IMG/VR virus record: IMGVR_UViG_3300027741_000083
Span: 1 to 54,513 of that record
DNA length: 54,513 bases
Reading direction: 5' to 3' (one strand)
DNA from: a virus
Part shown: positions 1-54,513 of the stretch, one piece after another
Numbering within the stretch: position 1 is the first letter of the stretch
How the letters are laid out: every line of letters starts with the position of its first letter
Program-made: the position numbers and the translations under genes
The notes under the pieces: generated by a model
What the model was told of the DNA's origin: nothing
Databases searched by the model: none
What the model saw: the letters and a program-made list of their open reading frames with translations, nothing else

Positions 1-135
1 AAAAGAAAATATAAAAAAAGCGTTATCTATTTTTTTGGAATGTAAAAAAAATAATGAGTGGACATCTTATCAAAAAAGTATGAAGGATATATCTATGCCA
101 TATTGGGCAGAAAATAAAGTAGGACAAATGGTAAC
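1..135. repeat. Terminal direct repeat (circular genome overlap), left copy
   Basis: Bases 1-135 match 54379-54513 with a single mismatch (A at 9, G at 54387); 10-135 are identical. The repeat lies inside one reading frame that continues across the join, so it is the overlap of a circular assembly or a terminally redundant phage genome, not a pair of attachment sites. Confidence 0.95.
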
Positions 136-170: not shown

Positions 171-1022
171 ATGGAAATAATGAAGCAAGATCAAGTTACA
201 AACGAAAGTTTTTATTTACAGCAAAAAGCTGAATTAGACCAAAAGGTTAGTACAGCAAAGGCCTACCCCAGGAATTTATTAAAAGTTGTTGAAGAAGCAA
301 AGGCTATCGCAACAATGAGCGAAGAAATAGCAAAATCATGTTTTTATTGCAAGCCAATTGGTGGGAATAAAGAAGCAGAAGGCTGTAGTGTTCGGCTTGC
401 TGAAATTATAGCGGCAAGCTGGGGGAATACAAGGGGCGGTTTTAGGCAAATAAAAAATGATGGGAAACAAATAACAGTTGAGGCTGTTTTTTGGGATATG
501 GAAAAAAACAATGAATCTGTAACGCAAGTCAAAAAGTCTATTATTAAAACAACTGGAGAGCGTTATAGCTTAGATCAACAATCTGTAGTAGCTTCCGCCC
601 TTGGATCAATCGCCCTAAGAAATGCCATTTTTAAAGTAATTCCGAAGTCAATTATTGAAACTGTAGCTACAGCAGCAAAAGATTATTTAATTGAAAATCT
701 TAGGAATTCAAAGAAAAAAGCTAACGTAGGTGCTGGAGATTCATTTGATGAAAAAGTGCAAAAAGCAATAAAAGCTTTTTCTTCTTTTGGGGTATCAGAG
801 CAAGAGCTTTTAATTTGTATCGCAAAAGATTGTGTTGAAAATATAACACCAGAAGATGTTGTAGATTTGCAAGGGTTATATATGGCAATCAAAGAAAAAC
901 ATTTTTCGGTAGAAGAAGTTTTAGGGTATAAAGTTAATTTAAAAGAAAAAGTAAATAAAGCGAAATCAATACTTGAAACAATAGCAAATAAGAATAAACA
1001 AGAACAAAAAAAGGCTAAATAA
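171..1022 (+). CDS. Putative phage recombination (ssDNA-annealing partner) protein
   Basis: This 283-residue protein lies directly downstream of the RecE-like nuclease, the usual place of a RecT/Erf-type annealing protein. It lacks a clear classical RecT signature. The conserved-looking core at about residues 70-165 has the motifs CSVRLAEIIAASWGN, a tryptophan-aspartate-methionine-glutamate segment, and ASALGSIALRNAIFKVIPK, which I associate with a family of phage proteins found beside recombination nucleases. The C-terminal third is lysine-rich and helical (EEVLGYKVNLKEKV...), like a DNA-binding tail. The start follows an AAGGAGA site; an internal Met at codon 4 is an alternative. It overlaps the next gene by one base (TAATG). 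The role rests on context and remembered family resemblance. Confidence 0.55.
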   Translation: MEIMKQDQVTNESFYLQQKAELDQKVSTAKAYPRNLLKVVEEAKAIATMSEEIAKSCFYCKPIGGNKEAEGCSVRLAEIIAASWGNTRGGFRQIKNDGKQITVEAVFWDMEKNNESVTQVKKSIIKTTGERYSLDQQSVVASALGSIALRNAIFKVIPKSIIETVATAAKDYLIENLRNSKKKANVGAGDSFDEKVQKAIKAFSSFGVSEQELLICIAKDCVENITPEDVVDLQGLYMAIKEKHFSVEEVLGYKVNLKEKVNKAKSILETIANKNKQEQKKAK

Positions 1023-1510
1023 TGAATGATATATTAAAATCAAGTAAACGAAAAGATTGGGAGACGCCGGAGTGGCTATTTAATCATTTTAATAAAATTT
1101 TTAATTTTGATTTAGATGTATGCGCTACAAAAGAAACTGCTAAGTGTTCAAAATATTATACACCCGAAGATGATGCTTTCAAAAAACCTTGGAATGGTAT
1201 GATCTGGATGAATCCACCGTATGGTAAAAATATTATAGAGCCTTGGTTAAAGAAGGCTCACGACGAAGCAATAGCTGGTAATTGCACAGTAGTTGCTTTG
1301 ATCCCAGCTAGAACTGATACGGCTTGGTTTCATGATTATTGTAGTAAATTTGGGATTATCTTTATTAGAAGGAGGGTTAGATTTGTTGGTGGCGCACATT
1401 GCGCTACCTTTCCTTCTTGTGTAGTTGTTTTTTCAAGATCATCTGGAACCTCTACTAAATTTGTAGATTACGGAATAGACGGATCAAAATTAGATAACAT
1501 ATCAAAATAA
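1022..1510 (+). CDS. DNA N-6-adenine methyltransferase (phage Dam type)
   Basis: The 162-residue protein matches the phage DNA N-6-adenine methyltransferase family (PF05869). It opens with the family's typical KRKDWETPEWLF, followed by DLDVCATKE (residues 31-39) and the catalytic NPPYG tetrad region (residues 64-68). Later come IPARTDTAWFHDYC and RVRFVGGA..ATFPSCVVVF, both usual for the family. It transfers a methyl group from S-adenosylmethionine to adenine N6, probably protecting phage DNA from host restriction or altering regulation. The start overlaps the stop of the upstream gene (TAATGA). No cognate endonuclease is nearby. It is the only DNA methyltransferase I recognise in the genome, which matters for interpreting the oxygenase cassette at 40.7-43.0 kb. 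Confidence 0.9.
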   Translation: MNDILKSSKRKDWETPEWLFNHFNKIFNFDLDVCATKETAKCSKYYTPEDDAFKKPWNGMIWMNPPYGKNIIEPWLKKAHDEAIAGNCTVVALIPARTDTAWFHDYCSKFGIIFIRRRVRFVGGAHCATFPSCVVVFSRSSGTSTKFVDYGIDGSKLDNISK

Positions 1511-2165: not shown

Positions 2166-2693
2166 ATGAACGCCATATTATTAATTGTACTGATAATCTT
2201 CATGATGAGTTGTTTTGCGCTGATCACATCTTTTCTTGTATTAAATAAAGCTAAAAAAACAGAAGAAAAATATTTAAAACAATATAAAGATTTTATAAAT
2301 TTAGAAATAGAAAAAAATAAATTAACTAGATTAATTCCAACAGAATGCTTAAAAGAAATCTCAAAAGTTCTTGATCATGGCGCAAAAAAATATAGTCCGA
2401 ATGGTTGGAAAGAAAAAATTAATAGAGTTATTGAGCCGTTAGGAGAATATGAGCCTATTTTTTATTATGCAATGAAGTCAAAATCTCACGTCGCAAAATT
2501 TCAAACAAGCAAGTTTGATTTTTCGGATGAGAAAAAGCAAATAAAATATTGCCGAATAGAAGGCGACCCCAATGAAAAAGAATCCGGCTGTCATCACCTA
2601 GCCCATGCAATCGTAAATTTGATGTTTGCTTATTGGCATGATATTCAGGCAACGCAACGTTTAAAGTTTATTGGAAAAAATAATCAGAATTAA
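2166..2693 (+). CDS. Membrane-anchored dATP/dGTP pyrophosphohydrolase-like protein (DUF5664 type)
   Basis: Residues 1-28 form a hydrophobic transmembrane helix followed by a charged linker. Residues 55-85 (RLIPTECLKEISKVLDHGAKKYSPNGW) and 145-160 (HLAHAIVNLMFAYWHD) match the signature of the phage DUF5664 / dATP-dGTP diphosphohydrolase N-terminal family: a 'GAKKY.P.NW' loop and an 'HL.HA..NL.F' metal-helix segment. Members are thought to hydrolyse purine deoxynucleotides, shaping the pool during phage replication. A membrane anchor is unusual; the usual protein is soluble. GAGAAGAG upstream serves as ribosome site. Family call is fairly firm; activity and substrate are inferred. Confidence 0.65.
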   Translation: MNAILLIVLIIFMMSCFALITSFLVLNKAKKTEEKYLKQYKDFINLEIEKNKLTRLIPTECLKEISKVLDHGAKKYSPNGWKEKINRVIEPLGEYEPIFYYAMKSKSHVAKFQTSKFDFSDEKKQIKYCRIEGDPNEKESGCHHLAHAIVNLMFAYWHDIQATQRLKFIGKNNQN

Positions 2694-15419: not shown

Positions 15420-15728
15420 GTTTCACCTTATTATTTTTATTATTTTTAAAGGATGATCATTGCGTCATCTTTTTTTTATTTTTATAAATAGATATTATCA
15501 CTTTTCTTTATTAAATTGCAAGTTAATATTTTTTATTTTTTAAAACATAATTATGTTTTAAAGAAACCAAAATAGTTTAAAAAATATACTATCATAGATC
15601 CTATAAATTATTAAAAGTAAAGTAATTTATTATTATTTATTTTAAAGAATTACTTTACTTTTTGTTAAGTTATAGTATAATTACTTTATCAAAGCAGTAA
15701 AATTTTAATTAAAAAAGGAGAATATAAA
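15420..15728. promoter_or_regulatory. Divergent control region between sheath operon and early genes
   Basis: No gene is seen. TAAAACATAATTATGTTTTA at 15541-15560 is a perfect 20-bp palindrome, probably an operator. AAAAGTAAAGTAATT (15613-15627) and AATTACTTTACTTTT (15648-15662) form a perfect 15-bp inverted repeat. The rightward early promoter lies over its right half. The 118 bases from 15613 to the start codon are very similar to 37191-37308, so the same control block was duplicated or conserved in front of both early operons. Confidence 0.7.
15654..15681 (+). promoter_or_regulatory. Early promoter of the repeated TTTACT class
   Basis: TTTACT (15654-15659), 16-bp spacer, TATAAT (15676-15681). 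The -35 box lies inside the inverted AAAGTAAAG operator, so a bound regulator should block polymerase. A third half-site-like ATTACTTTATC overlaps and follows the -10. Confidence 0.7.
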
Positions 15729-16375: not shown

Positions 16376-17023
16376 TTAAAAATTTGAGATTTTACGTTTT
16401 AAAAACGGGAATCAATTATAATTACTTTATCGCAGCAATCAAGCTGTTTAAAAAGCGGGTTAAATAATGTACGGATTAATTTTTGATTCAGGGAAAAAAG
16501 TTTTAACTAGAAAAGGCCAGAAATATGTCTTTAACGCAACCCCAACAGAAGAATTTTGGGAAGCTTGGCGAAGCGATAAAGGATCGGTAAAAAATAAAGG
16601 ATTTAGTGTAAGCAAAAAAGGTGACGGGTATGATTCTGCATGGTTTGTAAATCGCTGGGAAGACGTACCCGATCACGTTAAAAAATTAGATAAAGAATTT
16701 AATCGGCTTTCAAAACAGGAAGAATTAACAACAGAAGATGTACTATTAAAACCTGACAATTTAAATTATTTAGGTTATCAAAAAGTAGGGATCACTTATG
16801 CTCTTCAAAAAAAGTCATGTTTGATCGGAGATGAGATGGGGCTTGGTAAAACAATACAGGCAATTGGCGTAATGAATAACATTTCTGATTTTAAAACAGC
16901 AATTATAATTTGTCCTGCTTCATTAAAAGTTAATTGGTATAGAGAGATTAAGAAATGGCTGATAAATCAAGATTTAACTATTGAAATTATAACATCAAAA
17001 TCTTTAGATCAAAGTTTTGATAA

Positions 17024-17031
17024 AAATATTT
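17024..17031. repeat. Target-site duplication of the IS, left copy
   Basis: AAATATTT here and at 19482-19489 flank the element directly. Eight bases is the duplication length usual for IS1595-family elements. Confidence 0.85.
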
Positions 17032-17152
17032 CGGAAGTATGTATTTAACTAAACTAGCATAAAATATAATCAAAATAAGATTTATTTAATATTTTACTTG
17101 ACTAAAACTTTATTTAAGTATAAAATTATACTCATAAACTCAGGGTGTAATC

Positions 17153-18103
17153 ATGAAAACTAAAATACAAAATCGCTCTACTAAAGACGATATTATCACA
17201 AAAGAAATTCCAATGGCTTGTTCTAATGAAAAACTAGCTGTTGAATTTATGGAAGCTAAAAGATGGGGCGATCATCCTTTTTGCCCATGCTGTGCAAGCC
17301 TTGATGTTTATCAAATGCGAAGTTTAGATGGTGTGCGTCAAGAAAACTTTCGTTGGCGTTGTCGTGATTGCAGGAAGCAATATACTGTGCGTACAGGCAC
17401 TGTATTTGAAGATAGCAAAATAGAATTACGTCATTGGTGTTTTGGCTTTTGGCGTGCCTCTACTTCTAAGAAAGGCGTAAGTGCTTTAGAAGTTCATCGT
17501 CAAACAGGTTTATCTTATAAATCCTCTTTATTCATGTTAAATCGTATTCGTTTTGCGATGGCTGATAGCGTGCAAGATCCACTTAAAGGTGATGTTGAAG
17601 TAGATGAAACATACGTTGGTGGAAAACCTCGTTATAAGGGGCAAAGCAAGCGTGGACGTGGAACTAACAAACAACCCGTGGTTGCTCTAGTAGAGCGTCA
17701 GGGACGGGTTAAAACCAAGCCAGTGGCTAACGTAACAGGTAAAACTTTGAAGACTCTAATACTGGATAATGTTTGCAAGACTTCACGTATCATTACAGAT
17801 GAAAACCCTTCTTATAATGGGATAGGTCAACATTACGAAGGAGGTCACGAATCAGTATGTCATAGTGCAAAAGAGTATGTGCGTGGGGATATCCACTCAA
17901 ATACTATTGAAAGCTTCTTTGCTATTGTTAAAAGGGGTTTAAATGGCATCTATCATGCTGTTAGCAAAGAGCATCTACATCGCTATATGGCTGAATATGA
18001 ATTTAGATACAATTTTAGGGAAATGGAAGACGGAGAACGCACCATTCAGGCTATACACTCTTCACAAGGAAAGAGATTAATGTACAAAGAATGTATAGCA
18101 TGA
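17153..18103 (+). CDS. IS1595-family (ISXO2-like) transposase
   Basis: 316 residues. N-terminal zinc ribbon at about residues 43-76 (CPCC ... CRDCRKQY). The DDE-type catalytic core reads VEVDETYVGG (first Asp, ~residue 146), TDENPSYNGI (second Asp, ~220) and HSNTIESFFAIVKRGLNGIYH with the Asn/Glu position (~245-265), then RYMAEYEFRYNFRE, all usual for ISXO2-like transposases. It cuts and joins the element's ends. The frame is complete, so the insertion may still be active. TGGTGCG..-type codon use and higher GC contrast with phage genes. Confidence 0.92.
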   Translation: MKTKIQNRSTKDDIITKEIPMACSNEKLAVEFMEAKRWGDHPFCPCCASLDVYQMRSLDGVRQENFRWRCRDCRKQYTVRTGTVFEDSKIELRHWCFGFWRASTSKKGVSALEVHRQTGLSYKSSLFMLNRIRFAMADSVQDPLKGDVEVDETYVGGKPRYKGQSKRGRGTNKQPVVALVERQGRVKTKPVANVTGKTLKTLILDNVCKTSRIITDENPSYNGIGQHYEGGHESVCHSAKEYVRGDIHSNTIESFFAIVKRGLNGIYHAVSKEHLHRYMAEYEFRYNFREMEDGERTIQAIHSSQGKRLMYKECIA

Positions 18104-18159
18104 TCTAATTTTGTTTATTAAAACCGAACTTTAAAATTTCTAAAGATCGGCTCCCTCGT

Positions 18160-18270
18160 TTAGTGTGGGTAACTGCGGCAGTGCTCACGTACATGCTCTA
18201 TTTTGCCTTTTTTAAAGCGCAAATATGGACATACGTGAACTCCCTTTGGCAAATTACAAATAATAGCCAT
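18160..18270 (-). CDS. Small IS passenger protein, 36 aa
   Basis: 36 residues (MAIICNLPKGVHVCPYLRF...HVREHCRSYPH) with a good GGAGG site six to eight bases before ATG. Three cysteines and three histidines could bind zinc. Function unknown; it belongs to the IS cargo because both ends of the element enclose it. Confidence 0.6.
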   Translation of the reverse strand: MAIICNLPKGVHVCPYLRFKKGKIEHVREHCRSYPH

Positions 18271-18414
18271 AATAAGTCCTCCTACTTGAAGATTAAAAGT
18301 ATGAGTGGAAGTTGACTTATACTGAGGAAGGTGTAAGAATTACGACGTAGTATCTTGTGAAAGCCTTCATCAGTGATCATTAAATTCCGCTCATGATGGT
18401 TGATATGTCTAGGT

Positions 18415-18456
18415 CGGTAATGATAAACGCACTCACGAAAGGGTTTATCATTACCG
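18415..18456. terminator. Long hairpin inside the IS
   Basis: CGGTAATGATAAAC (18415-18428) pairs perfectly with GTTTATCATTACCG (18443-18456) across a 14-base loop. It lies between the two leftward passenger genes. It has no U tract, so it could be a transcript-processing or protein-binding site instead. Confidence 0.45.
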
Positions 18457-18521
18457 CTTGGTTTTGGCTGCTAGATCAGCCTTAAATTCTTTTCATAAAA
18501 ATTCCTCTTTAAGTATAAAAC

Positions 18522-19007
18522 TTAAAAATATATGTAAGTTCCTTTGCTGATGTTAATAAGCATATTTTTTTTACACATATTAAAGATACGTGTTGAAAGA
18601 GTGGCTTCTTTCAATTCTATATTGAACCTTTGTCTTAAAATCGTACTAATTTCCTTTATGTGTATTCCAGAAGAGTGTTCCTTAACTATGTTGTAGATAT
18701 TATTTTCTATTTCTAAAGTTTTAGAGCGAGGTTTTTTAGGGATAGTAGATTTTGATATGCTAGTCTGAGTCATTCCATTATGTGAGGGAATATAGGCTGA
18801 TTCAGTTTTACGGGTTATGAATTGACCATTCAATGATGAGGTGGATTCTACAGCTTGTTGTTTCTCTAAATATTCTAAAAGCTTCTCAAATTCATATTTT
18901 AGAGGCCAGAATTTAGCTTGTATTTCAGTCCTTTTTGGCTCCCTAGATAAAATATGATCAAAATAGCTTATTTGATGCTTTACAGTTTTAATGTAATCGT
19001 GTACCAT
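18522..19007 (-). CDS. IS passenger protein with C-terminal winged-helix-like domain
   Basis: 161 residues. The N-terminal 60 are helical and charged (YDH..SREPKRTEIQAKFWPLKYEFEKLLEYLEK). The C-terminal 65 (IENNIYNIVKEHSSGIHIKEISTILRQRF, TLSTRIFNMCKKNMLINISKGTYIYF) look like a winged helix-turn-helix. It could regulate or target the element, or be an unrelated cargo regulator. Confidence 0.6.
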   Translation of the reverse strand: MVHDYIKTVKHQISYFDHILSREPKRTEIQAKFWPLKYEFEKLLEYLEKQQAVESTSSLNGQFITRKTESAYIPSHNGMTQTSISKSTIPKKPRSKTLEIENNIYNIVKEHSSGIHIKEISTILRQRFNIELKEATLSTRIFNMCKKNMLINISKGTYIYF

Positions 19008-19096
19008 AACATTTCTCGTAGTTGCAGTTTAAGATAAAAGGGGTGTGAACAAGATTCACTTAATAGCCCTGATTTTTATATTTTGTTGTAATGGTT

Positions 19097-19163
19097 TGGA
19101 GCGCTCCGGTATCGAACCGGATTTGTGGCCCTATCAAAGACTCAATCCCACCTGGGGCGCCCC
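19097..19163 (-). ncRNA. tRNA-like remnant (tRNA-Gln-like) in the IS
   Basis: On the minus strand GGGGCGC pairs with GCGCTCC, and TCCGG-TTCGATA-CCGGA is a perfect T arm. The middle contains GTCTTTGATA, recalling a Gln (UUG) anticodon loop, but the D arm and anticodon stem are short by several bases and poorly paired. It is probably a degenerate tRNA gene carried off a host chromosome by the element, not a working tRNA. Confidence 0.5.
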
Positions 19164-19287
19164 AAATTCTACAACTTGAGCAGTTTATCAGTCCTTTTTA
19201 AAAAGATCCAGAAAATATTTTACTTTTTGAAAATAACTTTTTACTTTTTCGTCAAAAACGCTAACTTTTATTTTGAAATTAAAAAAT

Positions 19288-19422
19288 ATGAACAAAAAAA
19301 AATCTGGCGCAGAACCTCAACGGGTCAAGATTGATCTTAATTGGGAAAGTGCGATAGGGAAAGCTTTAAAAAAACCGCCCCAAAAAGAGGAGTTTGATAA
19401 ATTGAAAACCTCAAAAAAATAA
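19288..19422 (+). CDS. Small basic IS passenger protein, 44 aa
   Basis: 44 residues (MNKKKSGAEPQRVKIDLNWESAIGKALKK...). The core 'VKID.NWE.AI.KALKKP' resembles small lysine-rich proteins I have seen in low-GC intracellular bacteria, usually of unknown role. It lies close to the tRNA-like remnant, so the two may have been picked up together from a bacterial chromosome. Confidence 0.5.
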   Translation: MNKKKSGAEPQRVKIDLNWESAIGKALKKPPQKEEFDKLKTSKK

Positions 19423-19481
19423 GTATCTTCCTCAGTTATCAATATAAATTAAATACACGTTTACTTAAGTACATACTTCCG

Positions 19482-19489
19482 AAATATTT
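19482..19489. repeat. Target-site duplication of the IS, right copy
   Basis: AAATATTT, the direct copy of 17024-17031; joining either copy restores the helicase frame. Confidence 0.85.
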
Positions 19490-20577
19490 TAATAATGAAT
19501 TATGAAATAGCTAAAAAAATTCAAGGGAAACTATCTAATAAAACTCGCAATCTATTAATTTGCGATGAATCACATTATTTAAAAAACTATAAATCAGAAA
19601 GAACAAAAGCTGTTTTAAAAATCTCAAAAAAGTGTATAAAAGTAATCTGCATGACTGGGACGCCGATCATGAACCGTCCTGTAGAATTATTAACGCAATT
19701 AGAAATTCTCGGAAACAACGCAATGGAAGGGTTTAATAAAAGTAGGAGAACTTTTTTGAATAGATATTGTTTAGATGATGACGGTCATTACGCAGGAGCT
19801 AGGAACTTAGAAGAATTACAGGAAATACTTAGATCTAATGTAATGGTTATGCGTCACAAAAAAGATGTACTAAAAGATCTACCGCCAAAAATGAGGAAAA
19901 TAATAACACTCGAAAAGAACGAAGCTGTTTTAAAAGAGCAAAAAGAGCTATAAAAATACAAACAAGGAATCGAAGAGTATAAAAAATCACTTTCAAAAAT
20001 CAAAAAATTAGAGAAAAATAATAAGGAAGAATTTGATTCTGCGTTAGCGGCTATCAAATCATTAAAGCATAGCGAAATAGGGTTAATAACAACCCTTAGA
20101 AAAAAAACATCCATCTCAAAAATACCTTATTTAATAGATTTTATAAATGAATTTTTTAATTCTACGAATAGAAAATTAGTTTTATTTTGTCATCACAATG
20201 AAGTGGCAACAAAGATTGAAGAAGAATTTAAAAAAATATGCGTAAAAATAACTGGCTCTGTTGACGTTTCGAAGAGACAAGCTTTAGTAGATAAATTCCA
20301 AGATGATTCTAGTTGTAAATTATTTATCGGAACGTTACATAGCTGCGGGCAAGGAATAACATTAACACCATCAAGCGATGTTTTATTTGCAGAAATAGAT
20401 TGGACTCCTGCAACATTATGTCAAGCGGAAGATAGATGCCACAGGATAGGTCAAAAAAATTACGTAAGTATTACGCATATGGTTTTTGATGAAAGTATAG
20501 ACGGGATGTTAATTGAGAAAATTATAGAAAAGCAAGAAATAATAGATCAAGTGACAAAATAAAATAAAAAATAAAGC

Positions 20578-37064: not shown

Positions 37065-37190
37065 AACGTAAAATGTAACATCCTTTTTAAAATGTTGCAA
37101 CAATCTATAAAATAAACTAATAAACTTTTACTAATTCCTACTAATATTAGTAGTATATATTTTATACTAAATAGAACTATATTATTTTAA

Positions 37191-37259
37191 AAAAGTAAAG
37201 CAATTTATTATCATTTATTTTAAATAATTACTTTACTTTTTATTAAGTTATAGTATACT
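37191..37259 (+). promoter_or_regulatory. Early promoter and operator, near-copy of the 15.6-kb block
   Basis: AAAAGTAAAG (37191-37200) and CTTTACTTTT (37231-37240) are the inverted operator arms. TTTACT (37232-37237), 16-bp spacer, TATACT (37254-37259). The whole segment to the start codon at 37306 is nearly the same as 15613-15731. Confidence 0.7.
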
Positions 37260-37305
37260 TACTTTACTAAATAAGTAAAAATTAACTAAAAAAAGAGAAT
37301 ATAGA

Positions 37306-40700: not shown

Positions 40701-41492
40701 TTATTTAACAACAAAAGCCTTAAGCGGGTAGAATACCAAAGAATTTCTATATCCCCCCTCTTTCGTTGCATGAATAGGCGTCACTCCATGAATATTTTTC
40801 CATGCGGGATAAACTAGAATTGAATTGTTAGCGGAATCCATTGTGGCATTATAATCAGGAACATGAAGGTTTCCACCTGTTGCATTCATCTTTTTAGTTA
40901 TAATTACATTTACAGCCCCAACAATATTACCAGCGTCTCTGTGAAAAGGTGCTGAAATATTATAATTAGAAATTGAACTAGTAAACAAACGTCCAAACCT
41001 CCACTCTTTCGGAACTTTTTCAAATAGTTTCATTTGTTTTTCAAATTGTTCTGGAAATATTTCTTTGATTAATTCTTCACTTTCTTTTGCAAGCAACAGC
41101 ATAGCTTGCACAAACGTTTTGGCCGATGGAATCTGATGTATACTGGATCGTGTTAAATAATTCCTTCTAAGATGAGCTTTAGGTGGTATACTGCCTAAAA
41201 TCGCCGAATACTGAGCTACCTGATTTTTATATCTCCATTGTTGTTTCTCGTCATCCCAGCCATCGTTATGTTTTCGAAGCATTTTTGTTTTTGGTACATT
41301 CTTGCTTCTTAATTCTTTATTTGCTAAATCTGCCAAGTCAATCATTTTTTTTGGCATCTTTTTTATATAAAAACCGACCAAAACGCCGTCTTCATAAAAC
41401 ATACAATCTTCTGTTATGTTTGGCTCAATATCAGGGCATTGCTGCCCCATTTTTACATTGTTTCCAACTTTTATTAAATCTATTTTTTTCAA
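40701..41492 (-). CDS. TET/JBP-like 2-oxoglutarate/Fe(II) DNA-base dioxygenase
   Basis: 263 residues. The C-terminal catalytic segment reads APFHRDAGN (HxD metal pair, ~residue 185), AVNVIITKKMNATGGNLHVPDYN (double-stranded beta-helix strands), YPAWKNIHGVTPI (second metal His, ~235) and GYRNSLVFYPL (2-oxoglutarate Arg, ~250). This is the phage branch of the Tet_JBP family, which hydroxylates 5-methylcytosine or thymine in DNA. It stands directly after a glycosyltransferase and a ParB-like gene, so the hydroxylated base is probably glycosylated. Which base is oxidised is not shown by the sequence. Confidence 0.85.
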   Translation of the reverse strand: MKKIDLIKVGNNVKMGQQCPDIEPNITEDCMFYEDGVLVGFYIKKMPKKMIDLADLANKELRSKNVPKTKMLRKHNDGWDDEKQQWRYKNQVAQYSAILGSIPPKAHLRRNYLTRSSIHQIPSAKTFVQAMLLLAKESEELIKEIFPEQFEKQMKLFEKVPKEWRFGRLFTSSISNYNISAPFHRDAGNIVGAVNVIITKKMNATGGNLHVPDYNATMDSANNSILVYPAWKNIHGVTPIHATKEGGYRNSLVFYPLKAFVVK

Positions 41493-41504
41493 AGAACTAC
41501 CTTT

Positions 41505-42410
41505 TTAATTTATTAATATTTCCTTCCACATTTTGTTTTCATATTTTGTTGGTAAAAGATTGCTTTTTAATGGTTGTTTTCTTAGCGATAAAACAAGCTG
41601 TTCTTCATTTTCCACAGCATAACAATTAACCCCTTTCTTATATACACTTCCTTCAACATTACACCAATTTTCATGCAAAATTAAAGTACAATCGTGGTAC
41701 TCGGCCTCTAAAAATGTATATTGAGTCCCGCCTCCATCTTTTTTTATTGTTGACAAATCAATAAGAAATTTTGTTTGCGCATATAAAAGACTAATTTCTT
41801 CTAAATTTTTAGAGTAATATCCTTTGTAATACTGATCAAAACCTAATTGCTTCAATTTATGAAAATAGTAAATATGATTCTTATAACCATAAATTTCTAT
41901 ATCAGCCCCAATGTTATTAGCTTTGCAAATTATATCAATATTCTTGTCAAAATCTACCCTGGAAAGTGATCTATTAAAAGACTTTATGGCTTCTTGTTTC
42001 CTGTATTTAAAAAATGGATGTTTTAAAAATTTATTTTTTATGCCAATTTTATTTAACAATAAATGAACAGTCTCCCTTATTGTTATAACATTATTTTTTT
42101 TACAAAAATTTATTATTTCAGGCGAGAGTTCTGTTGGGTCATGTATTATGATTGTTGCGGAATTAAAAAAATCAAGATATTTTGTATTGGCTTTATCTAC
42201 AGCAAGAATTATCGGATTTTTAAATTTATCAATTATTGATGACTTGATGTTTTGATATTTTAAATCTCCATAAAATAAACCGCCACCGCCAAAAGTCTCT
42301 TTAACTTTTAGAATATGATTTGCACCAAGTATCTTTGCAAGATGATAAGAAAAAGAAACCCAGCCGCCATATTGGCTATTGCTTAAATAAATAAGGTTAT
42401 TATTGAACAT
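41505..42410 (-). CDS. GT-B glycosyltransferase, probable DNA-base glycosyltransferase
   Basis: 301 residues with a GT4-like C-terminal half: LSRVDFDKNIDIICKANNIG (~148-167), ADIEIYGYKN, KGYYSKNLEEISLLYAQTKFLIDLST, DGGGTQYTFLEAEYHDCTLILHENW (~225-249) with the Glu that contacts the sugar nucleotide, and KKGVNCYAVENEEQL. N-terminal YGGWVSFSYHLAKILGAN is the acceptor-side loop. Overlaps the ParB-like gene by 11 bases and precedes the oxygenase by 12, so the three are one operon. Likely to attach a sugar to the hydroxylated base. Confidence 0.82.
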   Translation of the reverse strand: MFNNNLIYLSNSQYGGWVSFSYHLAKILGANHILKVKETFGGGGLFYGDLKYQNIKSSIIDKFKNPIILAVDKANTKYLDFFNSATIIIHDPTELSPEIINFCKKNNVITIRETVHLLLNKIGIKNKFLKHPFFKYRKQEAIKSFNRSLSRVDFDKNIDIICKANNIGADIEIYGYKNHIYYFHKLKQLGFDQYYKGYYSKNLEEISLLYAQTKFLIDLSTIKKDGGGTQYTFLEAEYHDCTLILHENWCNVEGSVYKKGVNCYAVENEEQLVLSLRKQPLKSNLLPTKYENKMWKEILIN

Positions 42411-43032
42411 CTAACTTTTCTTTTTCTGACCTTAAATAATCTAAAAACATATATCCGATATAAGCATCTTTGCTTTTCCAAAATTGAACAAGATCATAAG
42501 CTTCTTTGTAATGCTCTAATTCAAAATCAATGACTATCGCCTTTCTTACTCCTTCTGACATTTCATTAGTTTTTTTGTTTAATTCATCTGCATTATCATC
42601 TAATATAGAATAATCAACCTCTTTGTTTTCTTGAAACAAACTATCAATTTCAAACTCACGAAAACCAGTGAAATCTAAGTCATATTCTAATTCTCTTAAA
42701 AGCTCTAACTCTTTTATCAATAAAGAATCGTCCCATCTTGAATATTGAGAAACTTTATTGTCTGCTATTCTAAACGCTTTAATTTGAGTTTCTGTTAAAT
42801 CATCTACAATAAGGCAAGGCACTGCTTCATATGAAAGTTTTAAGGCGGCTAAAAAGCGAGTATGCCCGTTTATTATGTTGTAATTTTCATCAATAATAAT
42901 TGGGGATCTAAAGCCAAATTCTTCTATGCTTTTTGCGACAGGATCTATCGCTGCAATATTATTGCGGGGATTGTTTTCATACGGCTTTAATTCTGTTGGG
43001 TTAATTAATATAATTTCCGGTATTTTTTTCAT
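42400..43032 (-). CDS. ParB/Srx-fold protein of the modification cassette
   Basis: 210 residues. ParB-like nuclease domain at residues 8-95: LKPYENNPRNN, SIEEFGFRSPIIID, NIINGHTRFLAALKLSYEAVPCLIVDDLTETQIKAFRIADNKV. No methyltransferase is fused. ParB domains recur in predicted DNA base-modification operons with oxygenases and glycosyltransferases, where their exact job is unclear (DNA binding, or nuclease/kinase-like). It begins the operon. Confidence 0.85.
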   Translation of the reverse strand: MKKIPEIILINPTELKPYENNPRNNIAAIDPVAKSIEEFGFRSPIIIDENYNIINGHTRFLAALKLSYEAVPCLIVDDLTETQIKAFRIADNKVSQYSRWDDSLLIKELELLRELEYDLDFTGFREFEIDSLFQENKEVDYSILDDNADELNKKTNEMSEGVRKAIVIDFELEHYKEAYDLVQFWKSKDAYIGYMFLDYLRSEKEKLDVQ

Positions 43033-43544: not shown

Positions 43545-44681
43545 TTAACAACAAAATCTTTGTTTAACGTATTGATATAAATCATTTGATTTTTTGTAAA
43601 TAGATTCGGATAAAGCATAACCTGATAAAATAGAAGCTGGAGTAGTACCCACCACTGTTAATATTCCAAAAATTATATTTGCGATATTAGACTCTGATTG
43701 ATTAAATAAAACTGCTGAATTTTTTGATGCGCTTGATCCAAGCCCATAACTTGACATTGATTGTACAAACAAAAAAATTGCACCAAAAATAATTCTTAAA
43801 ATATTTTGAAATTTTTCTGCTCCAAAATTTAAAATTATTTCACTCATTTTTTGAGCAAACATTTTAAAACAGTTATAATATAAATCTGAAAAACCATAAC
43901 AAGCAGCTCCGCTAAGAACATAAGCTGTTATTTTTGTAAAAAGATTATCGTTAATTTTTTCAGAAACGACAGATGAGATAGAGGGGGTAAACGCAGCAAT
44001 AACAACTAAACTTGATATGTAGCACAAAACGCTCATTAATTTTATAAAAAATCTTACTGCATTGTTTTGTTGCTCAAGAAACGCTTCATAATTAATAGAT
44101 ACTTGATTTCTAGCATCGCAAAAACCTGATAATGCTAAAAAACCTGATAATCCAGACATTATTGCTAATATTACATTTAACACGTCACTTGTTTGCCCTT
44201 TATTTAAACCTAACGAATCAAATATTAAATCGGCTGATTTAGCAGATAAAAAACCTAACGCAACACTTCCAATTGGGTTTAAAATTGATAATATTTTTTG
44301 TGTTTTATCTTTTTGTATTTCTACAGCAGCCCTTCCTCTGTTAGGAGCTTCCGGTAAAGAATTTAAAGAGATTATAGATACACTTGCCATACCTACCAAT
44401 CCAAAACATAAACTCATTGGATCTGAAAAACCAAAAGATTTTGCGCTTGCATTTGCGCCAATAAATCCAGCCGAGCCTCCCAACAAAGAGGCAATTATTT
44501 TTGAAATATATAAACAGAAATTTATTTTATGTTTCCCTTCGTCAGATTCAAAATAAGAAACGACGGGAAGGCAACAAGCCATTGAAGAATTTAAATTTTG
44601 ATTTGATGCACCTACGGGAAAATAAAATGGCATGGGAATATTAAAACCCATTTCAATGTTACTTACATTTTGCCTATACAT
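43545..44681 (-). CDS. Polytopic membrane protein of unknown function
   Basis: 378 residues with about eight hydrophobic segments: ~57-75 (LYISKIIASLLGGSAGFIGA), 88-106 (MSLCFGLVGMASVSIISL), 132-150, 168-188 (VILAIMSGLSGFLALSGF), 212-236 (KLMSVLCYISSLVVIAAF), 255-270, 290-315 (ILRIIFGAIFLFVQSM) and 335-360. No phage family recognised; it resembles host-type cargo. GAGGAT ribosome site upstream. A fragment of it is duplicated at about 45600-45680. Confidence 0.55.
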   Translation of the reverse strand: MYRQNVSNIEMGFNIPMPFYFPVGASNQNLNSSMACCLPVVSYFESDEGKHKINFCLYISKIIASLLGGSAGFIGANASAKSFGFSDPMSLCFGLVGMASVSIISLNSLPEAPNRGRAAVEIQKDKTQKILSILNPIGSVALGFLSAKSADLIFDSLGLNKGQTSDVLNVILAIMSGLSGFLALSGFCDARNQVSINYEAFLEQQNNAVRFFIKLMSVLCYISSLVVIAAFTPSISSVVSEKINDNLFTKITAYVLSGAACYGFSDLYYNCFKMFAQKMSEIILNFGAEKFQNILRIIFGAIFLFVQSMSSYGLGSSASKNSAVLFNQSESNIANIIFGILTVVGTTPASILSGYALSESIYKKSNDLYQYVKQRFCC

Positions 44682-44965: not shown

Positions 44966-45394
44966 TTATCGGATATTTGATCTACTTTTTAATTCTGCTA
45001 ATTCTTTAAGTGCATACCCTCGACAATCTGCACAAATCTTAACCCTTGGAGGAAAGCATCTGAGAGATTGCCTTTCCACAGGTTTTTTACACCAGTCACA
45101 AGGTATAAGGTCTTTATAATCACTACACTCAACCTCCTTTTCGTGACAATTGCACTTACATTTTTTAAAATTAGTTTCTTCGCACTCAGAACAATAAAGA
45201 AATGCTCCGTACGAATTATAATGAATCCAAGCGTTGCAGCCTTTTATACAATTCGCACAATCACTTATAGTCATCACTTTTAAAGGGTGTGTTTTTTTAT
45301 GCTTGATCAATTTATTATGGACTGGCTTAGGATTAAAAGGTTTTAGGGGTTCAGAATTATCAAAATCTTCTTTACTTAAGTTTTTTAGTTTCAT
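44966..45394 (-). CDS. Cysteine-rich zinc-binding protein
   Basis: 142 residues with many paired cysteines: CANCIKGC (~46-53), CSECEETNFKKCKCNC (~68-83), CDWCKKP (~99) and CADCRG (~120). At least two zinc ribbons are likely. The first seven residues, MKLKNLS, and the preceding bases are shared with the gene at 47190. Confidence 0.6.
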   Translation of the reverse strand: MKLKNLSKEDFDNSEPLKPFNPKPVHNKLIKHKKTHPLKVMTISDCANCIKGCNAWIHYNSYGAFLYCSECEETNFKKCKCNCHEKEVECSDYKDLIPCDWCKKPVERQSLRCFPPRVKICADCRGYALKELAELKSRSNIR

Positions 45395-45714
45395 AATCTA
45401 TCTCCTAATTCAATAATCTTTTGAGTTGATATTAATTTAACCCTATTAAATCCGTCTGAATATGCTGGATGAGAAAGGTGATTATAACTATTAGTATTGC
45501 AGATAATACAGCTGCCACAATTATTGTGCATTTTAACAGACTCGTGGCCATGTATACTGCAAGTTAATACATATTCAAGCTCAGCATCCAATCCGATTAC
45601 AGGAGTTTCTGGTAAAGAATTTAAAGAGATTATAGATACATTTGCCATACCTACTAATCCAAAAGAGAAGCTCATTATTGGCGGGAAACTTAAGGGTATT
45701 CTCCTTATATGCAT
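45391..45714 (-). pseudogene. Chimeric ORF: duplicated membrane-gene fragment joined to a Cys/His-rich protein
   Basis: Residues ~14-38 (MSFSFGLVGMANVSIISLNS...) copy residues ~88-112 of the membrane protein at 43545-44681. The remainder (VLTCSIHGHESVKMHNNCGSCIICNT...) is unrelated and Cys/His-rich, like a small zinc protein that has lost its own start. A good promoter lies 120 bases upstream. Probably a recombination product. Confidence 0.5.
45600..45680. repeat. Duplicated fragment of the membrane-protein gene
   Basis: About 80 bases here match 44341-44421 closely with scattered differences, in the same orientation. The copy lies about 1.26 kb from the original and is embedded in the chimeric frame. 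Confidence 0.75.
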
Positions 45715-46530: not shown

Positions 46531-47190
46531 TTAATCTTGTATCTCAATCAAATTTCTTATGTTTATTAAAATTTGATCTTGTATTATTTGTTTTTTTTCA
46601 GCATAAGAAGCAGCAGCACAAGCAACAAAAGAAGCAGTATCAAAATCATCATCAGAAGCGACAGAAGCAGCGCCAGAAGCGGCAGAAGCGGCAAAAGCGG
46701 CAGAATAAGTAGCATTAACACCAGAAACACAAGCATTAGAAGCAGCATAAGCAGCAGAAGCGGCAGAATAAGTAGCATTAGCGGCAGAAACACAAGCAGT
46801 GGTGCGCATTGCGCCACTTTTCCGTTCAGAAGAAGCATCAGCAGCAGCACAAGCAGCATAAGCAACAGATTTCAAAAATTTTTTTGTTATAGATGTATCA
46901 CCATTACACCATTTTTCAACTGTTTCAATAGCTTCAAAAGCACTGACTTCTTCTTTTTTTACAAATTTCATAACCAATTTTGCATTTTGACAAGCTGAAT
47001 TAACAATAGCTTTATGATCTACTCCCATTTTATTAGCTAACCAATATAGCCAATGGTATATTTCACATGTATTCCAAGTTTGTTTTAAATCAAAGTTTTT
47101 TTCTTCGACCCAGTTAACAGCCTCATCGCATGCTTCAAGTTCATTTAATTTTAATAGAAATTCTTCATGGCTTAAGTTTTTTAGTTTCAT
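46531..47190 (-). CDS. Alanine/serine-rich repeat protein
   Basis: 219 residues. N-terminal helical domain (LNELEACDEAVNWVEEKNFDLKQTWNTC, YHWLYWLANKMG) followed by AFEAIETVEKWCNGDTSI and then ~90 residues of Ala/Ser-rich helix (AACAAADASS, YSAASAAYAASNACVSG twice). This layout is common in phage Ala-rich proteins of unknown role. The repeats NATYSAA..A occur twice about 29 residues apart. A GTGCGCATTGCGCCAC segment interrupts the pattern. Confidence 0.6.
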   Translation of the reverse strand: MKLKNLSHEEFLLKLNELEACDEAVNWVEEKNFDLKQTWNTCEIYHWLYWLANKMGVDHKAIVNSACQNAKLVMKFVKKEEVSAFEAIETVEKWCNGDTSITKKFLKSVAYAACAAADASSERKSGAMRTTACVSAANATYSAASAAYAASNACVSGVNATYSAAFAASAASGAASVASDDDFDTASFVACAAASYAEKKQIIQDQILINIRNLIEIQD

Positions 47191-53548: not shown

Positions 53549-54513
53549 ATGCAAGGAAAAAAGCAAAAGACAAACTGGTTAATAAATAAATACGATCCTG
53601 AAAAGGGAATTAATTTTAAAAAAGGAGAAAATGTCAAAGTTTTTGATATGTCAATTGAAGATTATCATAATGAGATTGGCTTATCATCTTCATCAATCAA
53701 AATAATCTTACAGAACCCCCAGAAATTTTATATAAAATATATTTTAAAAAAAGAAAAAAATAAGACAGAACGAAGCGAGGCACTTAAAATTGGAAGCGCT
53801 ACGCATGCTTATTTAACAGAAAGAGAAGAATTTAAAAAAAAATATTTTATACAGTTAGAATATCTTAATAAAAATACTAATAAATATAAAGCTTTAGCAC
53901 AGGAAGTAAAAAAATCAGGGAAAGAAATATTAGATAAAGATAAATTCTTTGATTTGATGGGAATGAAGAAATCATTATTTAATAGTGTTATTTATAATAA
54001 AGAGGATTTAGAATCTGCTGGATTAAATTCTGAAAAGCCTTTGAAAGGAGATTATGTATTTACCGATGGTTACGCTGAGAAATCGATTTTTTGGAAAGAT
54101 AAAGAAACAGGTTTAATTTTAAAATCAAGACCTGATTATTTTAAAATAGACGGTTTATTTAATTTTATTAATGATTTTAAAACTGTAGCAAGCGCAGAAG
54201 AGAACGATTTTGGTAGAGCAATATATTTGTATGGCTATTATATACAGGCAGCTATGGAATTAGATGCTGTTTTTCAGTTAACTGGGATAAATGGTAATTT
54301 TTTAAATTCAACCGTTGAAAAAGAATATCCTTATTGCGCCGCTTTTTATTCTTACAATGACGCTTTAATTGAAATGGGAAAAGAAAGTATAAAAAAAGCG
54401 TTATCTATTTTTTTGGAATGTAAAAAAAATAATGAGTGGACATCTTATCAAAAAAGTATGAAGGATATATCTATGCCATATTGGGCAGAAAATAAAGTAG
54501 GACAAATGGTAAC
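53549..54513 (+). CDS. RecE-like PD-(D/E)XK exonuclease (runs across the genome join)
   Basis: ATG at 53549 with AAGGAGG seven bases upstream; the gene continues at base 136 and stops at 148, about 325 residues. Residues ~48-70 (IGLSSSSIKIILQNPQKFYIKYIL) and ~85-95 (KIGSATHAYLTE) are the RecE/DUF3799 entry, TGLILKSRPDYF (Asp, ~190-200) and FINDFKTVAS (DxK, ~208-217) the catalytic site, YLYGYYIQAAMELD the C-terminal helix. It degrades one strand of linear DNA 5' to 3' for annealing by its partner. Confidence 0.88.
   Translation, partial: MQGKKQKTNWLINKYDPEKGINFKKGENVKVFDMSIEDYHNEIGLSSSSIKIILQNPQKFYIKYILKKEKNKTERSEALKIGSATHAYLTEREEFKKKYFIQLEYLNKNTNKYKALAQEVKKSGKEILDKDKFFDLMGMKKSLFNSVIYNKEDLESAGLNSEKPLKGDYVFTDGYAEKSIFWKDKETGLILKSRPDYFKIDGLFNFINDFKTVASAEENDFGRAIYLYGYYIQAAMELDAVFQLTGINGNFLNSTVEKEYPYCAAFYSYNDALIEMGKESIKKALSIFLECKKNNEWTSYQKSMKDISMPYWAENKVGQMV
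54379..54513. repeat. Terminal direct repeat, right copy
   Basis: Copy of 1-135 with G at 54387 instead of A at 9. See the left copy. Confidence 0.95.

Follow-up and report, generated by a model that had tools for sequence, protein, structure and literature searches.

A ParB–TET/JBP oxygenase cassette with an exchangeable middle gene, predicted to hypermodify phage DNA

The DNA analysed here (the window) is the whole 54,513-nt IMG/VR virus record IMGVR_UViG_3300027741_000083, which consists of 35.7% T and 33.3% A. As the initial annotation had proposed, a packed cassette of three genes lies at 40701-43032, a span that three minus-strand open reading frames (ORFs) fit exactly. The ORF of a ParB-like protein overlaps the middle ORF by 11 nt, and a 12-nt gap separates the latter from the ORF of a TET/JBP-type oxygenase (Table 1). 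The claims that the genome is complete and that it carries an N6-adenine methyltransferase gene were likewise borne out, the former by a direct terminal repeat and the latter by a Dam-type gene, which was the sole DNA methyltransferase detected in the window. Since the terminal repeat marks the genome as complete, a missing C5-methyltransferase (C5-MTase) is informative. Pieces of a broken SNF2 gene were seen elsewhere in the genome, outside the cassette.

Table 1. Location of the cassette genes and of other features in the window
Feature	Position	Strand	Details
ParB-like gene, first of cassette	42400..43032	-	210 aa, Pfam ParB_N above cut-off
Middle gene, GT-B fold glycosyltransferase (predicted)	41505..42410	-	301 aa, predicted fold
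TET/JBP 2-oxoglutarate/Fe(II) dioxygenase	40701..41492	-	263 aa, TTG start, Pfam Tet_JBP above cut-off
Dam-type N6-adenine methyltransferase, outside cassette	1022..1510	+	Pfam Dam E 5.3e-29
Terminal direct repeat	left 1..135, right 54379-54513		135 nt, one mismatch

The oxygenase matched the Pfam family Tet_JBP (PF12851) with an E-value of 3.5e-13 (49.5 bits against a cut-off of 34.9). Homology places its iron ligands at H184, D186 and H235 and its 2-oxoglutarate ligand at R249, and these residues, together with N189 and Y255, were invariant in all 72 rows of the alignment. The comparison of a structure model with TET that had been suggested returned the TET double-stranded beta-helix fold: for a model with pLDDT 93 the best match was TET2 (Z 19.1 over 240 residues, rmsd 3.5), followed by NgTET1 (Z 18.8), while FTO and AlkB scored lower (Z 14.6 and below). 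The closest solved folds were those of TET2, NgTET1, CcTet and CMD1, some of them solved with 5-methylcytosine (5mC) DNA. In sequence searches of the PDB, a single TET sequence gave chance matches only and a TET profile reached TET2 weakly (E 0.004). Judged by profile, ligands and fold, the protein is a member of the TET/JBP family, with oxidation of a pyrimidine 5-methyl group as its predicted reaction. Several records label this oxygenase 'queuine tRNA-ribosyltransferase' (phrog_6059), which would agree with a substrate other than phage DNA, for instance tRNA. The label was supported neither by Pfam nor by the fold and looks like a propagated error. Both Pfam and the fold comparison rank TET/JBP DNA oxygenases first, and the DNA-modification families ParB, ADDT and TAGT are neighbours in relatives; we therefore consider a non-DNA substrate very improbable.

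For the middle protein, no family above cut-off was found in Pfam or NCBIfam, and PF20691 (TAGT) gave no match at E≤1. Its weak sequence matches were DUF7335 (E 0.041, sub-threshold) and a function-less PHROG (E 0.024), while sequence searches against phages, plasmids and the PDB yielded nothing useful. An AlphaFold2 model based on 12 sequences reached a pLDDT of 85 (66-76 for the other four models) and displayed a GT-B/GT4 fold, with VIA-align Z scores of 20.4 for HepE and 18.7 for the alpha-glucosyltransferase (AGT) of phage T4. The AGT match extends over 293 residues and trails the top GT4 enzymes by no more than about two Z units; a structure of this enzyme with hydroxymethyluracil-bearing DNA is among the tied fold matches. 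The GT-B fold is thus shared with the T4 alpha- and beta-glucosyltransferases, but the identity is 12%, the match is no better than that to GT4 enzymes, and the window protein has no Pfam match to either family. Its identity as a glycosyltransferase rests on the predicted fold, from a shallow alignment and a model of moderate confidence, and it is predicted to put a sugar on a hydroxymethyl group. The Tet_JBP match and this fold together agree with the initially predicted route of hydroxylation followed by glycosylation.

TET relatives at 48-100% identity were found in many phages, and all 18 further relatives of the window glycosyltransferase (63-72% identity) sit between ParB and TET, which argues that the cassette is not a chance assembly. 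The ParB-like protein matched ParB_N (E 1.7e-7, 31.6 bits against a cut-off of 26.3) as its sole domain, and in the test for a full partition protein, TIGR00180 (ParB/RepB/Spo0J), it reached 32.2 bits, under the curated cut-off of 58.45. In each of the 54 loci with at least 2.8 kb of upstream sequence, TET and ParB shared a strand and ParB was the upstream gene. Moreover, the ParB and TET distances were correlated over 74 loci (Mantel r 0.684, with none of 999 permutations as high). The ParB-like protein is a fixed partner of the oxygenase, and we predict that it serves as its DNA-targeting or recruiting partner. A 213-aa protein upstream of the MED4-184 TET bears the label 'DNA methylase', which we rejected as its only match was to ParB_N (23.4 bits, cut-off 26.3); it scored E 1.5e-57 with a ParB profile built here from an alignment that had included this protein. 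The first genes of Serendipitous, Tonitrus, LittleMunchkin, LilMcDreamy, Adawi, Nigel and KayaCho, annotated or placed as ParB, gave no ParB_N match at E≤0.01. Terminase-like genes follow the cassette in many relatives, with a TerL-like cluster in 55 of 83 loci.

The gene between ParB and TET varied. In the 80 loci with a classified middle gene (7 of 87 had no classifiable one), this was a GT-A 'TAGT'-like gene in 37, a GT-B gene as in the window in 20, a P-loop kinase with or without an amino-acid:DNA transferase (ADDT) in 13 and an FkbM methyltransferase in 8, where family names were taken from one or few representatives and class 1, built by single linkage, mixes P-loop proteins with amidotransferase-like ones. 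The representatives matched ADDT (PF18724) and FkbM (PF05050) above cut-off, TAGT (PF20691) just below cut-off and P-loop NTPases weakly. ADDT was found in relatives L009 and L029, and no family assignment was obtained for the 309-aa middle gene of L097. Among annotated actinophages, ADDT and Ploopntkinase3 share a cluster with TET in Tonitrus, as does TAGT in Serendipitous and, there below cut-off, in Bolt007. Judged on the representatives, most alternative occupants appear to fall in families that are known to decorate, or could plausibly decorate, a hydroxyl or modified bases; one is amidotransferase-like, so not all are obvious hydroxyl-capping enzymes. On a quick TET tree of 57 of the 61 95% clusters (rows of at least 200 aa with a class), the middle gene changed 23 times, compared to 26.8 times with shuffled labels; 24 of the 54 inner branches of this tree are weakly supported, three end branches are long, and two mixed-class clusters were each represented by a single member, a choice that can reduce the change count but not raise it. 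Unrelated middle genes were present in closely related phages (the control for middle-gene identity being one shuffled sequence for one pair), and such phages also differed upstream of ParB. The middle gene is a slot exchanged between phages while ParB and TET are kept, and turnover of this cap gene may nearly keep pace with the divergence of the oxygenase.

The absence of a C5-MTase gene from the genome held up in all searches of the window, including those for a diverged enzyme: neither a six-frame PF00145 search of the complete sequence (E≤10) nor a profile built on a family of short phage C5-MTases (E≤1) gave a match, and scanning ORFs of at least 100 aa for PC/ENV motifs likewise yielded nothing. 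The HhaI-like C5-MTase of Melnitz, which overlaps a more distant phage TET, was detected as a control, and the search is therefore able to see such enzymes. A C5-MTase is not a fixed partner in related phages either. It was present in 7 of 81 IMG/VR cassette records, many of which are fragments, in 2 of the 10 that are terminally redundant and in none of 16 cultured relatives. Since most relatives lack the gene, its absence is usual for the ParB-TET family and not, as the initial annotation had implied, a peculiarity of this genome. The phage might nevertheless encode a C5-MTase missed by standard profiles, and TET would then act on the resulting 5mC in the manner of the C5-MTase-TET-TAGT pathway. 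A number of window genes are without an assigned function, and some relatives contain a short C5-MTase-like family (~220 aa, SPPC/ENV), the gene of which lies 1 nt before ParB in L064. However, PF00145 does pick up this short family in other records (E 1.6e-8 to 8.1e-11) while finding nothing in the complete window, and most complete relatives are also devoid of a C5-MTase; we regard a missed enzyme as quite improbable. A short C5-MTase occurs in L020 but none in the closely related complete genome G007 (L014); the two share 98% (ParB) and 84% (TET) protein identity and 98.8% identity in the downstream DNA. In the window, no thymidylate-synthase-like dUMP hydroxymethylase (PF00303) was found at E≤10, nor were ADDT or 5hmU-kinase-type genes among the 67 ORFs scanned with Pfam.

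That most relatives lack a C5-MTase points to thymine as the target, as had been suggested for this oxygenase. Further indirect support comes from the T4 AGT fold match and from the genes for kinases and amino-acid:DNA transferases, of the thymidine-hypermodification type, that replace the glycosyltransferase in some relatives and whose caps we take to belong to a thymidine-type route. Counting against thymine are the use of 5mC by TET2, the best fold match, the seven records with a C5-MTase, and the cytosine products described for phage TETs in PMC12730594. Pocket residues were rejected as substrate markers because they gave no clean rule. At position 257, 69 of the 72 rows have Leu and 3 have Ile, where the aligned TET2 stretch has His; N189 matches the Asn of TET2 (HRDLHN), while Asp occupies this position in Melnitz and also in the ParB-linked HTVC112P. 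As TET2 has the same Asn and uses 5mC, the pocket is without a clear thymine signature. Thymine is favoured but unproven as the substrate. Alternatively, the oxygenase could use 5mC made by a C5-MTase of the host or of a superinfecting phage, which would result in glycosylated 5hmC only at host-methylated sites. This would be in line with the 5mC-DNA structures among the fold matches, with the C5-MTase-containing records and with the description of phage TETs as working alongside C5-MTases and glycosyltransferases on cytosine (PMC12730594). However, ParB-TET pairs without a phage C5-MTase occur in Prochlorococcus, Pelagibacter, Microbacterium and Arthrobacter phages and, with ParB by record annotation only, in Mycobacterium, Gordonia and Rhodococcus phages, so that suitable 5mC would be needed in every one of these hosts. 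The kinase/ADDT caps also speak against a dependence on host 5mC, which we consider unlikely.

Thymine hydroxylation followed by glycosylation, as predicted here, would resemble the kinetoplastid base J pathway (JBP1/JBP2 and the J glucosyltransferase), which also employs the TET/JBP family. In that pathway, JBP1 has a J-binding domain. JBP2 has an SNF2 part in the same protein, whereas the window oxygenase is a stand-alone phage protein in which Tet_JBP is the sole family above cut-off and no SNF2 part was found. A phage pathway of cytosine hypermodification by C5-MTase, TET and glycosyltransferase was reportedly described by Burke et al. in 2021. It shares with the window a TET oxygenase and, as predicted here, subsequent glycosyl transfer to a hydroxymethylpyrimidine in DNA. 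Unlike the C5-MTase-TET-TAGT pathway, the window and most complete relatives lack a C5-MTase, ParB is a fixed partner, and the window transferase is of the GT-B type, not a GT-A TAGT, even though many relatives do have TAGT-like genes. The C5-linked TET of Melnitz belongs to a distant subfamily, with Asp where the window has N189. The cytosine pathway is summarised in PMC12730594, and according to PMC13216743 the TAGT of T-even phages acts on glucosylated hmC. In phage T4, hmC arises at the stage of the nucleotide (PMC8670742); the window has no thymidylate-synthase homologue.

Related clusters are known from cultured phages. Rhodococcus phage Tonitrus carries a five-gene 'thymidine hypermodification system' (PMC11955845), and its cluster and those of other actinophages likewise combine a ParB-like gene (by annotation), a TET-like oxygenase and decorating enzymes in the absence of a C5-MTase. 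Unlike the window, Tonitrus has an ADDT (aGPT-Pplase2) and the Ploopntkinase3 protein after TET and no glycosyltransferase annotated among its first eleven genes, and its TET is only 24.9% identical to that of the window. ParB and TET without a C5-MTase are also found in MED4-184 and MED4-117 (Prochlorococcus) and HTVC112P (Pelagibacter). The MED4 phages have the gene order of the window and a TET with 48% identity, but MED4-184 has an FkbM methyltransferase where the window has its glycosyltransferase; in HTVC112P, the TET of which is a more distant relative, a gene annotated as FkbM follows TET. Prochlorococcus phage P-HS2 is a further candidate relative.

We propose that the cassette serves a contractile-tailed phage as a unit for post-replicative hypermodification of DNA bases. 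In it, the TET/JBP oxygenase would hydroxylate a pyrimidine 5-methyl group in phage DNA, most likely that of thymine to give 5-hydroxymethyluracil, and the GT-B enzyme would move a sugar to the new hydroxyl; the product would be a base-J-like glycosylated hydroxymethyluracil. Recruitment of the oxygenase to DNA or to particular sites is probably the task of the ParB-like protein. Swapping of the cap gene between two glycosyltransferase kinds, a kinase with or without an amino-acid:DNA transferase and an FkbM methyltransferase would change the exposed chemistry, and may thereby allow evasion of host restriction and modification-dependent nucleases. As a whole, we hold this explanation to be moderately probable. 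The initial suggestion that modification could be extensive in a genome so rich in T was neither supported nor contradicted. Modification might instead be confined to a few ParB-marked sites and serve regulation, packaging or host takeover rather than protect the whole genome, a reading about extent and purpose that is compatible with the chemistry proposed above. This reading would agree with ParB as a fixed partner, with the TerL-like cluster that often follows the cassette and with the sparseness of base J in kinetoplastids. However, no site or motif was identified, and the rapid exchange of cap genes is more readily explained by an arms race than by a mark for regulation; we regard a few-site role as somewhat unlikely.

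Taken more broadly, ParB-TET cassettes may represent a widespread phage system for direct, C5-MTase-independent hydroxylation of thymine in finished DNA, a counterpart of base J with an exchangeable cap and at least four outcomes, a generalisation for and against which we see the case as evenly balanced. These outcomes would comprise sugar transfer of two kinds, phosphorylation or substitution by an amino acid, and FkbM-type O-methylation to a methoxymethyl base. If so, modified thymine would arise in finished DNA along a base-J-like route in a large number of phages, both cultured and uncultured, and the presence of TET would therefore not imply cytosine chemistry. The slot would provide a natural series of close phages with different cap enzymes, and these could show which host nucleases a given decoration defeats. 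Candidate new DNA glycosyltransferases also emerge, of a GT-B type that no Pfam model matches above cut-off, as do possible DNA-hydroxyl methyltransferases and a testable role for orphan phage ParB proteins.

The three-gene ParB/glycosyltransferase/TET cassette proposed in the initial annotation was confirmed: the coordinates assigned to it there are exact ORF ends, both outer genes have Pfam support, and the middle gene has a predicted GT-B fold. The ParB-like gene and the middle gene overlap by 11 nt, 12 nt separate the middle gene from TET, and the TTG start codon of TET falls in the column where the related proteins begin (Met in 61/72 rows). The genome had also been called complete, which is borne out by a 135-nt direct repeat at the window ends with one mismatch, and the N6-adenine methylase at position 1022 is a real Dam-type enzyme (Pfam). 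Because a tail sheath, baseplate and E217/Pam3-like proteins are encoded, the virus is regarded as a contractile-tailed phage. The neighbours of the cassette are unlike those in relatives: clusters spanning at least six loci contain no window gene other than ParB, glycosyltransferase (GT) and TET, whereas terminase-like genes often lie 3' of the cassette in relatives, with a TerL-like cluster in 55/83 loci.

Positions of features in the window and in TET-bearing loci of relatives (L numbers)
Feature	Sequence	Position	Strand	Remarks
ParB-like gene	window	43032-42400	-	Pfam ParB_N above cut-off
Middle gene (glycosyltransferase by fold)	window	42410-41505	-	GT-B model; no Pfam family above cut-off
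TET/JBP oxygenase	window	41492-40701	-	Pfam Tet_JBP above cut-off
SNF2 helicase gene in pieces	window	16467-17048, 19495-19953, 20203-20562		broken up around the transposase (16467-20562)
IS1595-type transposase	window	17153-18103		between SNF2 helicase pieces
Mu-F-like minor head protein	window	27772-29607		aa 296-525 resemble an intein-splicing region (E 4.5e-7; 30.2 bits vs cut-off 35.8)
dATP/dGTP diphosphohydrolase N-terminal domain match	window	2166-2693		E 4.5e-12
116-nt repeat	window	15602-15717, 37180-37295		84% identical; each copy directly precedes a run of small plus-strand ORFs
95-nt duplicated piece	window	44324-44418, 45582-45676		84% identical; one copy within ORF 43545-44681 (no family above cut-off; apparently hydrophobic), the other within ORF 45391-45714
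ORF with short-period repeats (46600-46868)	window	46531-47190		no Pfam matches
Short (~220 aa) C5-MTase-like family	L064	8043-8702		SPPC and ENV motifs; lies 1 nt before ParB
Short C5-MTase-like family	L011	1593-2267		SPPC and ENV
Short C5-MTase-like family	L019	1068-1757		SPPC and ENV
Short C5-MTase-like family	L020	2152-2841		SPPC and ENV
Short C5-MTase-like family	L069	1492-2136		SPPC and ENV
Amidotransferase-like (purF/GATase_6) gene	L010	1530-2204		in ParB-TET slot, adjoining ADDT-class gene
ParB-TET without middle gene	L098	1343-8792		Oscillatoria MAG contig; preceded by 1048-aa and 822-aa ORFs, no Pfam matches at E<=0.05
ParB, distant TET, annotated FkbM methyltransferase	L149	3162-5384		consecutive; cultured Pelagibacter phage HTVC112P
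FAD-dependent oxidoreductase (DAO) gene	L073	1826-2692		Microbacterium phage Kozie; second after TET

The AlphaFold2 model of the window TET is confident (pLDDT 93), and its nearest solved folds are TET2 (Z 19.1), NgTET1 (18.8), CcTet (17.2) and CMD1 (16.6), with FTO (14.6) and AlkB (13.4) ranking lower. The catalytic residues H184, D186, H235 and R249, as well as N189 and Y255, are invariant in 72/72 aligned phage TETs. The residue aligned to N189 is Asn also in TET2 and Asp in phages Melnitz and HTVC112P, and position 257 is Leu or Ile in the aligned phage TETs and His in the TET2 stretch aligned there; judged from sequence, these pocket residues give no decision on the substrate base. The name 'queuine tRNA-ribosyltransferase' that phrog_6059, and public records labelled after it, give to TET/JBP oxygenases is apparently a propagated error.

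The middle gene has no match in NCBIfam and a weak one in PHROGs (E 0.024) to a family of unknown function. Its model (pLDDT 85; the other four models 66-76) was built from 12 sequences that are 62-72% identical to that of the window, and it matches the GT-B/GT4 enzymes HepE (Z 20.4) and PimA (19.3) as well as T4 alpha-glucosyltransferase solved with hydroxymethyluracil-containing DNA (18.7). Because these Z differences are too small for ranking, the predicted fold identifies a GT-B glycosyltransferase and not specifically a T4-type DNA transferase. E235, which sits where GT4 enzymes have the second Glu of their EX7E motif, is invariant in 12/12 sequences. A viral-contig scan recovered L078, which is the L002 contig and identical to the window, and 18 further GT relatives; each of the 18 lies between an upstream ParB and a downstream TET.

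Foremost among the new results is a constant ParB-TET pairing around a cap gene that is exchanged rapidly. We compared 87 loci (63 IMG/VR loci from the TET scan, the 18 GT loci, MED4-184, four GTDB contigs and the window), which form 61 clusters at 95% TET identity. ParB lies upstream of TET on the same strand in 54/54 loci that have 2.8 kb or more of upstream sequence, and wherever ParB was found (77 loci) the gap never exceeds 1,927 nt; the ten loci without ParB each have at most 1,389 nt of upstream sequence. Between loci, ParB distances track TET distances (Mantel r 0.684, 74 loci, 0/999 permutations as high). Among 80 classified loci, the slot holds a TAGT-like GT-A glycosyltransferase (37), a GT-B as in the window (20, counting the window and its identical contig), a P-loop kinase with or without an amino-acid:DNA transferase (ADDT; 13), an FkbM methyltransferase (8), a 309-aa gene outside these classes (1) or no gene (1). 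The Pfam basis of these classes is representatives only: those of ADDT and FkbM are above cut-off, those of TAGT just under it (24-26 vs 27.5 bits), the P-loop proteins are weak, and one slot set includes an amidotransferase-like gene. A TAGT representative matches phrog_842, a phage glucosyl-HMC glucosyltransferase family (E 3.2e-11). A protein of phage Tonitrus annotated adenylate kinase, named a 5-hmU DNA kinase in one study (PMC11955845), falls in phrog_800 (labelled terminase small subunit) together with two P-loop representatives. The amidotransferase-like gene of L010 beside an ADDT-class gene suggests a multi-step cap, and the DAO gene of Kozie may encode another decorating enzyme.

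A TET tree with 57 rows requires 23 changes of middle-gene class, compared with a mean of 26.8 for shuffled labels (3/200 shuffles as low), so that the class clusters somewhat, but little. Five locus pairs were also compared in DNA. Identity between their middle genes is 62.7-71.2% when counted over aligned columns and 44-52% over all columns, about equal to a single shuffled control (66.8% and 49.9%). The cap is not the sole difference in the three close pairs, since their sequences 5' of ParB are also distinguished by insertions or replacements (58-67% identical, all columns).

DNA identity over aligned columns in five locus pairs with different middle genes
Pair	ParB	TET	Downstream
L037 (TAGT) vs L040 (kinase)	94.5%	95.5%	91.1%
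L014 (TAGT) vs L020 (FkbM)	95.3%	85.7%	98.8%
L057 vs L037 (TAGT, different subtypes)	95.2%	90.6%	95.6%
L003 (FkbM) vs L004 (TAGT)	78.6%	81.9%	flanks unlike
L016 (TAGT) vs L092 (GT-B)	66.7%	75.3%	flanks unlike

The initial annotation had seen no C5-METHYLTRANSFERASE (C5-MTase) in the window, and this held: none was found by a six-frame PF00145 search at E<=10, which was positive in 13/14 control genomes. A diverged enzyme, for which it had advised a search, was likewise not found by the short-family profile (E<=1) and by a PC...ENV motif scan of window ORFs of at least 100 aa, which recognised 5/5 control ORFs tried. Nor did the window yield a thymidylate-synthase homologue able to make hydroxymethylated nucleotides.

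Among relatives, PF00145 matches occur in 7/81 IMG/VR records (6/48, in a set whose 49th member, MED4-184, is not counted here, and 1/33), and many of the records are fragments; one is full length (genome G004), one has 265 aa (G063) and five are of the short family, two being near-copies. Reading the ends of 19 large records showed an end-to-end overlap at >=95% identity in ten, and an eleventh, G008, has an end repeat over 472 nt at lower identity. Two of the ten carry a C5-MTase (G004, G014), and PF00145 found none in the other eight (G007, G013, G018, G019, G031, G061, G065, G066) or in G008. The 22 cultured phages are a sample from a collection with 93 TET-matching records (E<=1e-3). Only Methylophilales phage Melnitz is positive, with a distant TET overlapping a gene annotated HhaI modification methylase; it is one of six phages outside the cassette relatives (with Cr30, S-CBWM1, P12024L, DLP_6 and C48C1). 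The 16 counted as cassette relatives, several of them close kin, have none. ParB is profile-supported in eight of these (MED4-184, itself part of the profile, MED4-117, Bolt007, Margaery, Ottawa, MementoMori, Bumble, and HTVC112P, whose TET is of the distant type), rests on record annotation in six (Serendipitous, Tonitrus, LittleMunchkin, LilMcDreamy, Adawi, KayaCho) and was not seen in Nigel or Kozie, whose TETs belong to the same group. Members of the ParB-TET family usually lack a C5-MTase.

Phage TET/ParB/glycosyltransferase neighbourhoods were reportedly proposed by Iyer in 2013; Burke (2021) is said to have tested phage TETs, and Lee (2022) is said to treat thymidine hypermodification. 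The interpretation given in the initial annotation is partly supported. The oxygenase would act first, on a methylated pyrimidine in DNA, and sugar transfer would follow; glycosylation of a DNA hydroxymethyl-pyrimidine as such is quite probable. Thymine would be the simplest methyl-pyrimidine present, since most complete genomes lack a C5-MTase, and the ADDT/kinase occupants also point to it. We favour thymine only mildly, because TET2-like enzymes are cytosine enzymes and the pocket residues do not decide. The same caution follows from published phage TET work, which concerns cytosine (PMC12730594). The authors of the Tonitrus study suggest a possible thymidine hypermodification system made up of ParB, TET, aGPT-Pplase2, 5-hmU kinase and a hypothetical protein (PMC11955845). 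ParBc proteins are described elsewhere as companions of the cytosine carboxymethyltransferase CmoX, and what they do there is called unknown (PMC12783734).

The novelty of the exchangeable middle slot is provisional, since the literature searched, in which no report of it was found, leaves out most subscription journals. One survey notes 288/753 genomes that have TAGT but no alpha- or beta-GT partner, as potential novel transferases (PMC13216743), and the ParB-TET cassette could explain part of these.
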